Shown one piece after another: positions 1-29,402 of a DNA stretch of 29,402 bases. Below the pieces are notes generated by a model. The model saw only the letters and a program-made list of their open reading frames with translations. It was not told the DNA's origin and made no database searches. A program made the position numbers and the translations under genes. The stretch spans positions 1-29,402 of IMG/VR virus record IMGVR_UViG_3300030329_000604, one strand, 5' to 3'. Within the stretch, counting starts at the first letter, position 1. Each line of letters starts with the position of its first letter. The DNA comes from a virus.

Positions 1-207
1 TTCTACTTCTGCTATATTGTCAAATCTCTTTTGTAGTTTCTTATAAATATAATTTTCTATATTATCATTTTTTTTCAAATCTCGTAAAACAAAAGACATC
101 TCTGCACCAGAATCAAACAAAATTGTAAACAACCAATTGTTAGTATCTGTGTAATCCCAGAACAATCTTTCGTTTCTACTATTAAAAAATGTTCTTTTAG
201 CTTTCAA
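1..207 (-). CDS. Partial hypothetical protein, second allele of the 29001-29282 gene
   Basis: The reading frame is open from a TTG at 207-205 to the window edge (69 codons, 3' end cut off). The TTG overlaps the TGA stop of the methyltransferase upstream as TTGA, which mirrors the ATGA joins elsewhere. The protein is the same family as the 93-aa product of 29001-29282: both contain a TFFN start region followed by LFTILFDSGAEMSFVLRDL. The nucleotide match is complete over 1-97 and breaks down toward the 5' end next to the methyltransferase, where residues 1-25 differ at many positions. Function is unknown. I read it as the other allele of the same locus on a circular map rather than a true paralogue. 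Confidence 0.75.
   Translation of the reverse strand, partial: MKAKRTFFNSRNERLFWDYTDTNNWLFTILFDSGAEMSFVLRDLKKNDNIENYIYKKLQKRFDNIAEVE
1..207. repeat. Left terminal overlap matching 29076-29282
   Basis: Base 1 aligns to base 29076. Bases 1-97 are identical to the right-end copy, base 98 or so differs once, the match resumes to about 142, and then the copies diverge up to the start codon of the encoded gene. This is what an assembly of a circular genome gives when its two ends run into alternative alleles. Confidence 0.9.
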
Positions 208-944
208 AATAAAGTATTTTTATTATTATAGTCATCTATTCTTTGTTCAGCTATTTTAAAATACTCTTTATCAAGTTCAATACCAATAAAATCTCTATTA
301 GTATTACAACAAGCAACACCTGTTGTTCCGCTTCCCATTGTGGGATCAAGCACAATATCATTTTCATTGGAATACATTTTTATCAACCACTCAAATAATT
401 TGACTGGCTTTTGTGTAGGGTGGTAGCCACCTTCTCTTTCTGCGGTTGTAAAATACTTAACGCTTCTTGGGTATCTTAAACCAGATTCATTTTTCACATT
501 GATTGATTTGGTTTGTGTTGCATAAGACTCGGTGTCCCTTACGGCAGTTCCTTTATTGTATGGCACGCCCTTTGTCATTTGTGGATTATATGTCGGTAAT
601 TTTTTATAAAATACAACAATGTCCTCATGCGCCACCAAAGGAATCTTTTTAGAGTTCAAGTAACCTGTTGCCTTTGACTTTTCCCAGACCATAGTATATC
701 TAAAGTCTTTTAAGTTGCTCATAATAAGTTGCGAAGTGAAGGGCTGTTTTGCTGTGGTTATAAAAGCAGTATTATCTTTGCTTATTCTGTCAAACTCAAA
801 CCACATATCTTCAAAAGGTATAATGTTATCCCATTTAGTTCTTTGATTTAATACACCATAGGGAAGGTCTGTAAGTATTAAATTGACACTTTTATCTTCA
901 ATACACTTCATTAGTTCTAAACAATCTCCGTTATATAATTTCAT
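204..944 (-). CDS. DNA methyltransferase 1, beta-class (N6-adenine/N4-cytosine type)
   Basis: 246 aa, S-adenosylmethionine-dependent DNA methyltransferase that would modify an amino group of adenine or cytosine in a short target site. The catalytic motif is TDLPYG (residues 25-30, a DPPY variant), HPTQKP is at 175-180, and the SAM-binding loop is DPTMGSGTTG (200-209). The catalytic motif precedes the SAM loop, the order seen in the beta class. It starts two bases downstream of the expected spacing from a nuclease-gene remnant (951-1028) and overlaps the next gene by TTGA. No restriction endonuclease is adjacent, so an orphan phage enzyme protecting DNA against host restriction is likely. The target sequence cannot be read from the protein. 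Confidence 0.92.
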   Translation of the reverse strand: MKLYNGDCLELMKCIEDKSVNLILTDLPYGVLNQRTKWDNIIPFEDMWFEFDRISKDNTAFITTAKQPFTSQLIMSNLKDFRYTMVWEKSKATGYLNSKKIPLVAHEDIVVFYKKLPTYNPQMTKGVPYNKGTAVRDTESYATQTKSINVKNESGLRYPRSVKYFTTAEREGGYHPTQKPVKLFEWLIKMYSNENDIVLDPTMGSGTTGVACCNTNRDFIGIELDKEYFKIAEQRIDDYNNKNTLF

Positions 945-950
945 TATTAA

Positions 951-1028
951 TCACTTTATAAATCCGACCATATATGTCTCTATTACACTAATTGCATTGT
1001 CTAAATCGTAGCAGACTTCTGCATTGGT
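951..1028 (-). pseudogene. Remnant of the 3' end of a second VRR-NUC nuclease gene
   Basis: Between the two methyltransferase genes, the minus strand encodes an open 25-residue tail ending in TGA at 951. It matches the C-terminus of the intact VRR-NUC protein (1753-2118): 17 of 23 aligned residues agree, including CYDLD, VIETYM and the final IK. There is no start codon and no catalytic part. The remnant begins immediately after the TAG stop of methyltransferase 2. It is best explained as a recombination scar left when a [nuclease 3' end + methyltransferase] unit was added in front of an existing nuclease-methyltransferase pair. Confidence 0.85.
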
Positions 1029-1030
1029 TA

Positions 1031-1756
1031 CTATTTTTTTAATTCATTTATTTTTTTATTTATTAATTCACAAAATTTTTTACTTATTTCGGAACCTATA
1101 AAATATCTATTAGTTTTTAAACAAGCAATAGCTGTCGTTCCACTACCCATATAAGGATCAAATACTATATCATTTTCATTTGTGCAAGACAGAATACAAT
1201 TTAAAGGAATTTCAATCGGAAATGGTGCAGAAAATTTGTTTTTAGTGTCTGGCGAAATCTCCCAAATGCACTTATTAAATAATGATTTTTTTCTATCAAA
1301 CTTAACTCTGCTTTTTTTCGTTTTTTGAATCCAATATATATACTCTATAATTGGAAAAAAATAACTTTTATCTAATTTAGGTGTGTTCTTTCTGTTCCAA
1401 ATTATAGTTTGTTTTACAGGAAAATCATACACATACAATGGATTAATTTCTTGATGTAGTTTTTGAATTGGTTGATGATTATAAAACAATGATCCTGTAG
1501 GTTTTAAAATTCTTAAACATTCTTTAATAATTATTTTTTGATTTTTAATATAATCTTTTGGTTTTAAACAATCAATAAAAGTGTCATATTCTATCCTTCT
1601 TGATTTAGTTTTAAAACCATTATTTACGTTTCTATTGCTTGACCAATATCCTTTATTATAAGGCGGACTTGTAACAATTAAGTCTATAGAATTATTTGGA
1701 ATCTTTAACATTGTTTCTAAACAATCTTCATTATACAATTTATTAAGTTCTATCAT
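1031..1756 (-). CDS. DNA methyltransferase 2, beta-class with TSPPY motif
   Basis: 241 aa, SAM-dependent DNA methyltransferase, not closely similar to methyltransferase 1. The catalytic motif is TSPPYN (29-34), a conserved SAPFP element lies near 176-180 and the SAM loop is DPYMGSGTT (200-208). TSPPY with this order occurs in both N4-cytosine and N6-adenine enzymes, so the modified base is uncertain. Its ATG overlaps the TGA of the VRR-NUC gene (ATGA at 1756-1753), exactly as the 93-aa gene does in the other allele at 29282-29279. It is part of a cassette absent from the right-end allele. Probable role: modification of phage DNA against host restriction. Confidence 0.92.
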   Translation of the reverse strand: MIELNKLYNEDCLETMLKIPNNSIDLIVTSPPYNKGYWSSNRNVNNGFKTKSRRIEYDTFIDCLKPKDYIKNQKIIIKECLRILKPTGSLFYNHQPIQKLHQEINPLYVYDFPVKQTIIWNRKNTPKLDKSYFFPIIEYIYWIQKTKKSRVKFDRKKSLFNKCIWEISPDTKNKFSAPFPIEIPLNCILSCTNENDIVFDPYMGSGTTAIACLKTNRYFIGSEISKKFCELINKKINELKK

Positions 1757-2118
1757 TTTATATATCCACTCATATAGGTTTCTATAACAGCAATTGCAGT
1801 GTCTAAGTCATAGCATATTTCTGATATATAACCACGTTTATTTAATTGTTCATTCCAATACCATTGATGCTGTGTAGGTTTATTATAACCAACTTTTAAT
1901 TCTATTGCCAACCCATGCCAATACTCATTTTCTGATTTATATTTTTTTATAGGCTCATAGATTATTATATCAGGTATCCCTTTTTTATAACCTGTCGCTT
2001 TGGCTTTGTTTCTTTGGCTGTGGTATTTTTGGTATTGCCCACCCATTGTTGAACAATATAAATACCCTTGTAAGTCTAAATACTTACAGACTGCTTTTTG
2101 TAATTGGTATTCTTTCAT
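1753..2118 (-). CDS. VRR-NUC domain nuclease
   Basis: 121 aa, the normal length for a stand-alone VRR-NUC (PD-(D/E)XK superfamily) protein. The family's signature is visible: a basic TGYKKGIPD stretch with G47, P49 and D50, then the E73-L-K75 active-site strand, followed by Q83. Family members cut branched DNA such as Holliday junctions or flaps and are common in phage replication modules. Here it lies downstream of the DUF4373 gene and a tiny membrane-protein gene, whose TGA overlaps this ATG as ATGA. A second partial copy is at 29279-29402 and a C-terminal remnant at 951-1028. A role in recombination-dependent replication or resolving DNA before packaging is inferred. Confidence 0.9.
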   Translation of the reverse strand: MKEYQLQKAVCKYLDLQGYLYCSTMGGQYQKYHSQRNKAKATGYKKGIPDIIIYEPIKKYKSENEYWHGLAIELKVGYNKPTQHQWYWNEQLNKRGYISEICYDLDTAIAVIETYMSGYIK

Positions 2119-2231
2119 CTATAAAATTTATATATTATATAACTAATAAAAGGTGTAGAAAATAATAGTGTAATTATATTAATATGCGGTTCACCGCAGA
2201 TACCTATTATGTGCTTTATTATTTCCATCAT
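2115..2231 (-). CDS. Small membrane protein, 38 aa
   Basis: An open frame fills the gap between two larger genes and is coupled to both by 4-base overlaps: its first ATG (2231-2229) overlaps the TGA of the DUF4373 gene, and its TGA (2117-2115) overlaps the ATG of the VRR-NUC gene. A second ATG follows at once. After a short N-terminus that includes a CGEPH stretch, residues 17-37 are hydrophobic (INIITLLFSTPFISYIIYKF), giving one predicted membrane segment and a basic end. No family recognised. The double coupling is the best argument that it is translated. Confidence 0.7.
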   Translation of the reverse strand: MMEIIKHIIGICGEPHINIITLLFSTPFISYIIYKFYR

Positions 2232-2980
2232 TTCTTAACCCATTTAGCACCTGCATTTGGATTGTATTCAGTAACATATCCAATAGCTTTTAAGTGTTGT
2301 TCATATTCTTTTTGTGCAGAAGTATCAAGTCTTTTCATTAGTAAACTATCGTAATGATCTGGAAACCTATTCTTTTGCTTATTAAAGCCATTACTTGCCC
2401 ACCTCTTTAATCTTCTACCAATATCAAATGTCTTTTCCATTTCTGCTCTAAACTTACTTCCTGACTTATTCTTTTCAGTCCAATATAAAAAGAAGTCTTT
2501 TTTATCACTATCACTAATATCTTCTATTGCGTGTATGGAATTTTTAAATTCCACTATTCTTTTTTCTATACTTTTATTTACTTTACTTATACTCTTATTT
2601 ACTTTACTAGCATTGCCGTTGCTATGCGGTTGCATTGCGACTGCATTATTCCAACGCTTATTAGCGTTCTCTTTAGCTTTAATGCTCTTTGTATTTATTT
2701 GTTCTATATGATTATTTAAACGCCTTGAATAAAAGCAACCATCTTCTATAACAAATAAATCAAAATCTTCTATTACTGCTCTTAATTTATCAGGTTCACA
2801 TTGCAAACCATAAGCTAATATATCATATTGATTTGTGCAAATTTTATTTTCTTCTGAGAATAATAATTCTAATACTGCCCAGAATATACCATATCCTTTA
2901 TAACCAAGACTTGCCCTTAGTTTTATTATTCTAATATCATTTCTTGCAGATGAATCGTGATTGAAGTATGTTTTTTTCAT
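2228..2980 (-). CDS. DUF4373 (Lin1244/Lin1753-like) replication-type protein
   Basis: 250 aa. The N-terminus, with KKTYFNHDSSARND followed by a GYKGYGIFWAVLELL stretch, is typical of the DUF4373 domain found in phage and prophage replication regions, where a winged-helix DnaD-like role in replication initiation is suspected. Residues 100-145 are a low-complexity linker rich in Lys, Asn and Ser (repeated SKVNKSI), and the C-terminal part is basic. It sits between the ssDNA-binding-like gene and the VRR-NUC gene, which fits an early replication module. No helicase or polymerase gene is seen, so the phage probably depends on host enzymes. The function is inferred from family and context only. 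Confidence 0.8.
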   Translation of the reverse strand: MKKTYFNHDSSARNDIRIIKLRASLGYKGYGIFWAVLELLFSEENKICTNQYDILAYGLQCEPDKLRAVIEDFDLFVIEDGCFYSRRLNNHIEQINTKSIKAKENANKRWNNAVAMQPHSNGNASKVNKSISKVNKSIEKRIVEFKNSIHAIEDISDSDKKDFFLYWTEKNKSGSKFRAEMEKTFDIGRRLKRWASNGFNKQKNRFPDHYDSLLMKRLDTSAQKEYEQHLKAIGYVTEYNPNAGAKWVKK

Positions 2981-3786: not shown

Positions 3787-3996
3787 TTAAAATGGTTTTA
3801 TAAATTTAACAATATCCAAGTCTATTAAGTCACATAATCTTTCTGCATCTGTGACAGTTAATTTACAAGGGTCCTCTAATTTTTTTAAAGTTGTAGGGTA
3901 TGACCAATCTAATGCTTTAGCCACCTGCATCTTATTCATTTCTTTTACAGACATAGCAATTCTAATTACTTGTCTACGCATCATTCGTGAATTCAT
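3787..3996 (-). CDS. Small helix-turn-helix regulator, first gene of the leftward series
   Basis: 69 aa. Residues 22-60 read as a Cro/CI-type HTH: KMQVAKALDWSYPTTLKKLE gives a turn and recognition helix, followed by TVTDAERLCDLIDLD as a supporting helix. The basic N-terminus (MNSRMMRRQVIRIAM) precedes it. It is the first gene of the leftward transcription series and diverges from the plus-strand module at 4167 across a palindrome-rich region, so it is a good candidate for a repressor acting on both promoters. It is short for a full CI repressor and has no dimerisation or cleavage domain, so it is more Cro-like. Confidence 0.7.
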   Translation of the reverse strand: MNSRMMRRQVIRIAMSVKEMNKMQVAKALDWSYPTTLKKLEDPCKLTVTDAERLCDLIDLDIVKFIKPF

Positions 3997-26071: not shown

Positions 26072-27166
26072 TTATAATTTAACTGCCTTTTGTCCTGTAA
26101 ACTGTTCCCATCTTTCTATAATTACATCACAGTATTTAGTATCTAATTCCATTCCATAACATATTCTATTAGTTTTTTCACAAGCTATTAATGTTGAACC
26201 ACTACCAAGAAATAAATCAACTATTTTTTCTGTATCTTTTCCAATATCTTTTAAAATATCAACAAACAGTTTTGTTGGTTTTTGTGTTGGGTGTAATCTT
26301 TTCCCACCATCTGAATTTACAAAACCCCCGTGAACTACCTTATAAAATCTATCAAAGCCACTTTCTATATCAATCCAAGCCAATTCAAATGGACTTCCTA
26401 ATGCTTTCTCTGCACCTTCCCCTCTTTTATACCACACAAGCCACCTACCTCTATGTGGTAATTTAGATGGAAAACAATTAGCACCAAATACTACTTTTAC
26501 ACAATCAAATAAAAAAACTGTGTCTAAATTAATTTCTTTATCATCATTTTTTATAACATCAAAAGTATTAGAAGTTTTATATCCTGAATTTTTAGAAGAA
26601 TAATTTATTCCATAGGGAGGATCTGTTAATACCATATCTGCTTTTTCCCCATTCATTAATTTATTAACATCACTTTCTTTTGTGCTATCTCCGCACATCA
26701 ATCTGTGCTTTCCTAATTGCCAAACATCACCAAGTTTAACCCTGCTTTCTTTTACTTCTGGTATATGGTCATCTTCTGTATTGCCCTCTGTAATTTTATC
26801 AATGTTAATATCAAGGTCAATGTGTTTAAAACCCCAATCAGTAAGTTCATCTATATCAAATTCATTAGCTAAAATATCCATATCAAAGTCACCTGTGTTT
26901 TTATTTAGTCTAATGTTTAATTCTCTTTCTTCTTCTTTGCTTAAATCTAATACTACACAATCTAATTCTGTGTGCTTTAATTCTTTACAAATTTTATAAC
27001 GCTGATGCCCACCAATAATAGTCATATCTTTATTTACAACAATTGGTTCTACTAAAGAAAATTTAGATAGTGACTTTTTTAAGTCATTATATTGCTTTGT
27101 GCTAATCTGTCTAGGATTATACGTTGCAGGTTTTAATTTATTTATTTTTATTAATTCTATTTTCAT
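26072..27166 (-). CDS. ParB-like domain fused to DNA methyltransferase
   Basis: 364 aa. Residues 1-95 form a ParB/sulfiredoxin-like domain (LKPATYNPRQIS at 11-22, GGHQR at 52-56). Residues 140-364 form a beta-class methyltransferase: TDPPYG (181-186), HPTQKP (292-297), DLFLGSGST (317-325). The combination is common in phages; the ParB-like part may help DNA binding or hydrolyse NTP. It lies immediately upstream of the small terminase, in contrast to the other two methyltransferases in the variable site, and probably belongs to the core genome. Packaging-linked modification is possible but speculative. Confidence 0.92.
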   Translation of the reverse strand: MKIELIKINKLKPATYNPRQISTKQYNDLKKSLSKFSLVEPIVVNKDMTIIGGHQRYKICKELKHTELDCVVLDLSKEEERELNIRLNKNTGDFDMDILANEFDIDELTDWGFKHIDLDINIDKITEGNTEDDHIPEVKESRVKLGDVWQLGKHRLMCGDSTKESDVNKLMNGEKADMVLTDPPYGINYSSKNSGYKTSNTFDVIKNDDKEINLDTVFLFDCVKVVFGANCFPSKLPHRGRWLVWYKRGEGAEKALGSPFELAWIDIESGFDRFYKVVHGGFVNSDGGKRLHPTQKPTKLFVDILKDIGKDTEKIVDLFLGSGSTLIACEKTNRICYGMELDTKYCDVIIERWEQFTGQKAVKL

Positions 27167-28511: not shown

Positions 28512-29007
28512 TTTTTAAATAGTTTTTTACGTTCTTAATTGCCTTGTAAATAGTAGCCCTAGATATTCTAGTTGCTTTAGCTAATGAATTTAAACTATGC
28601 GAATCTCTATAATATATTCTAAATAATTCTGCATCAAACCAATATAAATCTTGTAGCTTTTTTTCAATCCATTCTAAGCGTTCTTCTACTTCTTTTTTAT
28701 CTTTTATCGTATATGTAGTATTATCAGCAGTAATGCTTTCTATAGTAGTTGTAGTATGAAATTCATAATACTTATTGTATTTGTAATAGTACCTGCTTGT
28801 TTTAGAATGATATTGATTTAGCATTACTCTGGCTATGTAGAATGTTAATTGTTTTTTCTTTATTATTTCATTTATCCTGTCCTGATCACATTTATAAAGT
28901 TCTTCAATTACAAAACTTAATAAATCATCTTTGCCCTTTTCACCTGCTATATTGTAAGCCATATCTTTTAGCTTGTCATAGTTCTCTATCAGGTATTTAT
29001 TTAGCAT
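28501..29007 (-). CDS. Sigma-factor-like HTH protein
   Basis: 168 aa. N-terminal helices (NKYLIENYDKLKDMAYNIAG, KDDLLSFVIEELYK) resemble region 2 of small sigma factors; KKKQLTFYIARVMLNQYHSK fits the helix that follows. The C-terminal HTH (HSLNSLAKATRISRATIYKA, about 134-156) resembles region 4. Such proteins occur in Bacteroidetes phages and may be phage sigma factors or degenerate relatives. It is placed at the end of the early genes and before the morphogenesis genes, so control of late transcription is an attractive idea. Confidence 0.6.
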   Translation of the reverse strand: MLNKYLIENYDKLKDMAYNIAGEKGKDDLLSFVIEELYKCDQDRINEIIKKKQLTFYIARVMLNQYHSKTSRYYYKYNKYYEFHTTTTIESITADNTTYTIKDKKEVEERLEWIEKKLQDLYWFDAELFRIYYRDSHSLNSLAKATRISRATIYKAIKNVKNYLKNER

Positions 29008-29282
29008 ATTTTAATTATAGAAGGTATATTTAATTGCTTTAATAAGTTGTATTCTACATTAGATATTTTACCTATTTCTACTTCTGCTATATTGTCAAAT
29101 CTCTTTTGTAGTTTCTTATAAATATAATTTTCTATATTATCATTTTTTTTCAAATCTCGTAAAACAAACGACATCTCTGCACCAGAATCAAACAAAATTG
29201 TAAACAATAGGCTGTTAGTATCTACATAATTCCAATATAATCTGTCCTTTCTTGTATTAAAAAATGTTGGCTTTCTTTTCAT
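29001..29282 (-). CDS. Hypothetical protein, 93 aa (complete allele)
   Basis: Start ATG 29282-29280 overlaps the VRR-NUC stop as ATGA. Contains TILFDSGAEMSFVLRDLKKN and a basic middle, ending PSIIKIC. No family recognised. A second copy with a different N-terminus and TTG start occurs at 1-207, where methyltransferase 1 stands before it. It overlaps the sigma-like gene by 7 bases. Confidence 0.7.
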   Translation of the reverse strand: MKRKPTFFNTRKDRLYWNYVDTNSLLFTILFDSGAEMSFVLRDLKKNDNIENYIYKKLQKRFDNIAEVEIGKISNVEYNLLKQLNIPSIIKIC

Positions 29283-29402
29283 TTTATATATCCACTCATA
29301 TACGTTTCTATAACAGCAATAGCAGTATCTAAGTCATAGCATATTTCTGATATATAACCACGTTTATTTAATTGTTCATTCCAATACCATTGGTGCTGTG
29401 TA
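29076..29402. repeat. Right terminal overlap with 1-207 and 1753-1876
   Basis: Bases 29076-29282 match 1-207 and bases 29279-29402 match 1753-1876 (4 differences in 124 bases). The two matches are adjacent here but separated by 1.55 kb at the left end, the methyltransferase cassette. The end is thus an alternative, cassette-free allele of the left end. Confidence 0.9.
29279..29402 (-). CDS. Partial VRR-NUC nuclease (C-terminal 40 residues), cassette-free allele
   Basis: The frame from the window edge to TGA at 29281-29279 encodes the C-terminal part of the nuclease encoded at 1753-2118 with four nucleotide differences. It includes the QHQWYWNEQLNKR stretch but not the catalytic GIPD or ELK. 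It is cut by the window end only; there is no sign that it is broken. Confidence 0.85.
   Translation of the reverse strand, partial: TQHQWYWNEQLNKRGYISEICYDLDTAIAVIETYMSGYIK

Follow-up and report, generated by a model that had tools for sequence, protein, structure and literature searches.

Sites at which phages exchange cargo genes, including sites for methyltransferase genes, are already known. As outlined for P2 and P4 phages, small loci of high gene turnover lie between two conserved genes, with homologous recombination proposed as the second step of exchange (PMC9122126). Likewise, for the lactococcal 936-type phages a hotspot of methyltransferase insertion has been described in the terS-terL region, and methyltransferases of this packaging module have been shown to confer protection from restriction enzymes (PMC4190342).

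The locus analysed here surrounds a VRR-NUC-like nuclease gene on a virus contig of 29,402 bases (the whole of which is referred to as the window). Compared with the account of the P2/P4 hotspot (PMC9122126), it is also a small locus of high turnover between two conserved phage genes; however, the cargo described there consists of anti-phage defence genes next to cos, whereas here orphan DNA-modification genes are found on both sides of the nuclease, and readable scars at the joints are a feature of the window slot. With the 936-type phages, as outlined in PMC4190342, it shares the presence of orphan methyltransferase genes at a fixed, otherwise empty place in a phage of approximately 30 kb. 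The position and the phage group are different, the cargo additionally includes Mom, SspD-like and thymidylate-synthase-like genes, exchange extends across approximately 70 lineages, and scars identify lineages that are close to the parents. No island around a VRR-NUC gene was described in the titles and abstracts of the literature found. Notable features of this locus are the narrow theme of the cargo, the two slots around one nuclease and the scars, the origins of which can be followed to identified lineages.

Most simply, the ends of the contig indicate a permuted or circular phage genome of approximately 29 kb, like those of its relatives, with the empty and the loaded haplotype of one junction carried at opposite ends (Table 1). 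The empty form consists of the nuclease followed by a gene for a 93-aa protein, and the loaded form of the nuclease, MTase1, a nuclease remnant, MTase2 and the 93-aa gene. Both end alleles listed in the initial annotation were recovered, namely a second nuclease 3’ end at one end of the contig (97% identical to positions 1753-1876) and the start of another 93-aa allele at the other. Judging from these ends, the empty and loaded forms would coexist in the sampled population. In the loaded form the stop codon of MTase2 and the TTG start codon of the 93-aa allele overlap. The 37-aa protein encoded upstream of the nuclease is conserved and hydrophobic-looking, its start and stop codons overlap the neighbouring genes at both ends, and cargo in relatives sits on either side of it. 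A palindrome within the spacer that precedes the nuclease gene was considered as a possible recombination site and rejected, as it is coding sequence of this 37-aa gene.

Table 1. Features of the exchange slot and its surroundings in the window (coordinates are those of the 29,402-base contig)
Feature	Position	Strand	Remarks
93-aa gene, 5’ part, loaded haplotype	1..208	(-)	mosaic
MTase2 (N6_N4_Mtase, PF01555), second cargo	204..944	(-)	directly behind remnant
Remnant assigned to the 3’ end of a foreign VRR-NUC nuclease	951..1028	(-)	69 nt at 98.6% to L012 nuclease tail
Strict homology of remnant	955-1023	(-)	in-frame stop TGA 951-953
Left joint	1024..1033	(-)	MTase1 stop TAG 1031-1033, then few bases, then nuclease tail
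MTase1 (N6_N4_Mtase, PF01555), first cargo	1031..1756	(-)	start overlaps nuclease stop (ATGA)
Intact VRR-NUC-like nuclease	1753..2118	(-)	PD..ExK residues GIPD / ELK readable in translation
37-aa small gene	2115..2228	(-)	between replication-initiation-like gene and nuclease
p250 (Lin1244_N, replication-initiation-like)	2228..2980	(-)	left edge of upstream cargo slot
93-aa gene, intact	29001..29282	(-)	right edge of slot, without known family
Nuclease 3’ end, empty haplotype	29279..29402	(-)	fused directly (ATGA) to 93-aa gene

Between MTase2 and MTase1 an open tail of 25 residues resembling the nuclease C-terminus had been reported, and translation of positions 945-1040 of the minus strand, which ends in VTNAEVCYDLDNAISVIETYMVGFIK and a stop, agrees with this exactly. 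The frame is open from the 3’ end of MTase1 up to the TGA stop, with MTase2 directly downstream. Using blastn, the homologous segment was matched to the 3’ end of the nuclease gene of the related locus L012 (IMG/VR contig 3300030329_001968; E 1.6e-31), and 22/23 residues were identical to the nuclease tail of the L012 lineage, as against 17/23 to the window’s intact nuclease, the latter figure being exactly that first given. The local score of the remnant against a library of nuclease tails was 69 (maximum of 21 in 200 shuffles), and an exact 33-base piece of it was found in only one other contig, that of L012. On this comparison the remnant is assigned to another nuclease lineage, of the L012 type, as the initial annotation had proposed without naming a source. 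The candidate explanation that it is an independent small gene was rejected. No ATG, GTG or TTG start able to make it a gene is present in its frame, and no free-standing homologue was identified in a profile scan of approximately 20,000 frames, in which all partial nuclease matches were located at contig ends, except for the window’s contig-end copy and the remnant itself (listed again through loci that re-cover the window). The remnant presumably makes no protein.

The sequence on either side of the remnant was compared with that of relatives, all of them, like the window, assembled metagenome contigs. The nuclease, MTase1 and the bases that follow were identical to L005 at 1044/1087 positions (96% at the DNA level). 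L005 is a relative of the same lineage with MTase1 alone at the site, in the order nuclease-MTase1-93aa, its MTase1 protein being 98% identical; in L145, MTase1 is found behind a different nuclease. As L005 displays the single-cargo state within the same lineage, MTase1 was probably in place before MTase2. At the left joint, approximately 8 bases match neither parent, and no long homology is common to both. Behind MTase2, the first ~94 nt of the 93-aa gene match L099 (92/94, 98%), and the rest matches L006 of the A lineage, which is that of the window phage itself, at 110/111 positions. The remnant and the mosaic 93-aa gene together point to an added segment comprising a foreign nuclease tail, MTase2 and a foreign 93-aa head, the left border of which appears to be illegitimate and the right border to lie in homologous sequence. 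No locus with the complete donor arrangement (nuclease’-MTase2-93aa’) was found among the virus contigs searched; the closest MTase2 matches reached up to 67% and came from loci without nuclease or 93-aa profile matches.

It is very likely that the remnant is the scar of gene stacking at an exchange slot, left by a two-joint addition of MTase2 behind MTase1. A donor with MTase2 behind its own nuclease and a phage with the arrangement nuclease-MTase1-93aa would have co-infected a cell, and their DNA would have been joined there. An illegitimate join just past the MTase1 stop would have left the donor’s nuclease tail as a scar, and homologous recombination within the 93-aa gene would have formed the right join, the outcome being two methyltransferases in series, of which MTase1 would have been loaded before MTase2. 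The tail would have been retained only through its linkage to the MTase2 start codon in the donor.

Three other explanations of this arrangement were weighed. The sample appears to hold several junction haplotypes and the contig ends differ, so that MTase1 might stem from one phage and the nuclease tail with MTase2 from a second, the two having been fused by the assembler. Such a chimera is nevertheless very unlikely, as no exact stretch of k-mer length is common to the parents (MTase1 of L005 and the tail of L012 share a few bases), the joint lies approximately 1 kb inside the contig with bases found in neither parent, and an equivalent scar arises independently on another contig, in L012. 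Local duplication of the phage’s own nuclease end followed by divergence would account for the clear homology between the remnant and the intact tail, but the remnant is 98.6% identical to L012 and far less so to its own nuclease, and the 93-aa head downstream is foreign too, making a duplication exceedingly improbable.

The tail might also have been kept for a function, either as leader or translation-initiation context for MTase2 or as a deliberate homology anchor for loading. The start codon of the cargo often overlaps the nuclease stop in single-cargo phages, so that the tail would be a native leader, the second cargo of L012 also retains a nuclease tail, and the nuclease 3’ end does recombine (in L114, see below). 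Against this, the double-cargo loci L015, L022 and L145 are free of scars and have no tail between their genes, and the ATG of MTase2 in the window is situated a few bases beyond the tail stop with no overlap; retention for function is regarded as unlikely.

The stacking reading is joined by two further scars, and the earlier suggestion that genes are added one after another is supported by their occurrence. In L012, the stretch behind Mom consists of 112 nt from the head of a 93-aa gene (92.9% to L117) followed by a nuclease tail of the L022 type, the crossing having taken place at an 8-base microhomology (AAATTATA); a 68-aa gene follows this tail, and L022 carries the same gene behind that tail. 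In L048, the scar is located upstream of the nuclease, where 29 nt of a nuclease head separate a 72-aa gene from a methyltransferase, with TATG at the joint. A similar search for scars of p250 tails gave output swamped by intact p250 homologues.

Exchange was also identified within and around the nuclease gene itself. The nuclease of L114 has a body like that of L017 and last ~60 bases like those of L089/L012, indicating that exchange can be confined to the 3’ end. Between L080 and the window, the flanks share 88-94% DNA identity and the nuclease has been replaced wholesale (~43% protein identity), L080 having an extra upstream methyltransferase. Nuclease-tail identity was 0.89 in pairs with different cargo versus 0.95 otherwise, a weak trend among non-independent pairs. 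The proposal that the nuclease 3’ end serves as the recombination anchor thus held in part. It agrees with the tail exchange of L114 and with the alternative genes behind the nuclease in many relatives; however, the left joint of the window appears illegitimate, with the homologous crossover in the 93-aa gene instead, and the 3’ end is not the sole site, given the upstream slot, the ParB-methyltransferase-terS slot and the whole-nuclease exchange of L080.

For the comparison of slots, approximately 90 related contigs were gathered by two protein scans, and nucleases were grouped into lineages at 95% DNA identity. The nuclease and the 93-aa gene were either almost adjacent, at a distance near zero, or 120-1312 bases apart. 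Among 70 nuclease lineages this slot was empty in 35, with large cargo in 17, small cargo in 14 and mixed cargo in three (one lineage being left unassigned), so that relatives with other cargo at the junction, the check proposed at the outset, account for 34/70 lineages. Gaps of more than 450 bases were found between nuclease and 93-aa gene in 23/88 loci and between p250 and nuclease in 20/58, in comparison to none in the control pairs 93aa-p168 (0/89) and p79-p117 (0/55); the spacings of terS-terL and 93aa-p168 were constant, and those of p250-nuclease and nuclease-93aa variable. Across ten near-complete genomes most gene borders barely varied, with single outliers elsewhere, the clearly variable borders being p250-nuclease, nuclease-93aa, ParB-methyltransferase-terS and that upstream of a 69-aa gene (3787-3996). 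A second slot, equal in standing, is situated upstream of the nuclease, and the ParB-methyltransferase-terS interval forms a third.

Comparison of closely related nucleases indicates that cargo moves between lineages. The nucleases of L058 and L059 are 96% identical, with a C5 methyltransferase in the slot of L058 and an empty slot in L059; the very close nucleases of L008 and L009 are accompanied by Mom and a C5 methyltransferase, and those of L053 and L062 by a long C5 methyltransferase and a small gene, respectively. Conversely, L089 and L079 have C5 methyltransferase cargo that is 92.6% identical with nucleases only 45% identical, the shared gene preceding the nuclease in one of the two phages and following it in the other. 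With respect to an integron-type cassette array, no shared element was seen by eye at the cargo edges inspected, which begin at start codons, and no integrase was noticed among the genes searched.

Several observations concern the third slot. In L146 (1333-2799), a relative of MTase1 (89%) adjoins a relative of MTase2 (48% to that of the window), and the pair is flanked by the ParB-methyltransferase gene on one side and the terminase genes on the other, with no nuclease scar. In some genomes the ParB gene (26072-27166 in the window) is fused to a methyltransferase domain; in others it is seemingly short and lacks this domain. The p364-terS site was compared in G001-G020, and G001 possesses a separate 210-aa gene at this site, Mom-like by eye.

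Counted by cluster, with cluster representatives searched, 53/56 cargo proteins of at least 100 aa from the two nuclease-flanking slots were placed in clusters of DNA-modification type, the 56 proteins being counted without dereplication. The families represented were C5 methyltransferases, N4/N6 methyltransferases, Dam, MT-A70, Mom (PF25680), one thymidylate-synthase homologue and one SspD/DndC-like protein. The other three were a GNAT protein, a tRNA-methyltransferase-like protein and an OB-fold DUF3127-like protein, the last so called by resemblance to the DUF3127 gene of the window. PADLOC, run on ten cargo proteins, returned essentially only methyltransferase and DndC/SspD-like matches. 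Judging from these gene families, protection of phage DNA from host restriction is the most likely role of the cargo.

The lone SspD/DndC-like gene of L081 (4336-5202; PADLOC SspD E 8.8e-12) possibly acts in sulfur-based modification of DNA, the other components of the known system being absent, and the product of a short thymidylate-synthase homologue in the cargo slot of L066 (4333-4968; PF00303, E 3.3e-18) may make a modified pyrimidine. A gene of 68-70 aa with no assigned family (MRLPITFDLTPKG...) was found in L010, L011, L015, L022, L061, L062, L093 and L145, travelling through the same slot either alone or with methyltransferases.

The intact nuclease was matched to PHROG 5702 (Holliday junction resolvase; E 1.8e-12) and to Pfam PF08774 (E 6.8e-5; 23.3 bits, the curated cut-off being 23.8). 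It is thus a distant match to VRR-NUC and phage Holliday junction resolvase-like nucleases such as PmgM of P1. No relative above 60% identity was found among named phages, whose VRR-NUC-type nucleases gave best matches below this value, and no relatives were found in bacterial genomes (tblastn); its role is putative. With respect to a restriction-modification unit of nuclease and methyltransferase, the downstream slot is empty in half of the nuclease lineages, but some lineages have modification genes in the upstream slot or fused to ParB. The resolvase-like matches leave room for, but do not support, an active role of the nuclease as the engine of exchange, promoting crossovers around its own gene together with the phage single-strand DNA-binding protein. 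If true, this would make the locus an island dedicated to the exchange of DNA-modification genes, in which these can be stacked. This role is unlikely, and the compared loci showed no dedicated loading machinery.

The best-supported explanation involves ordinary phage recombination, acting at a slot in which the turnover of DNA-modification genes is favoured by selection. Cargo would be swapped through homologous exchange within the flanking genes, and would be stacked, with a scar left behind, when two loaded phages are occasionally joined illegitimately. The addition of a second gene is rarely visible, and the three scars in three phages show additive stacking. The slot also represents a natural repository of DNA-modification genes from uncultured phages that probably serve to evade restriction, comprising Mom, SspD-like, thymidylate-synthase-like and many methyltransferase genes, along with families that have no assigned modification.
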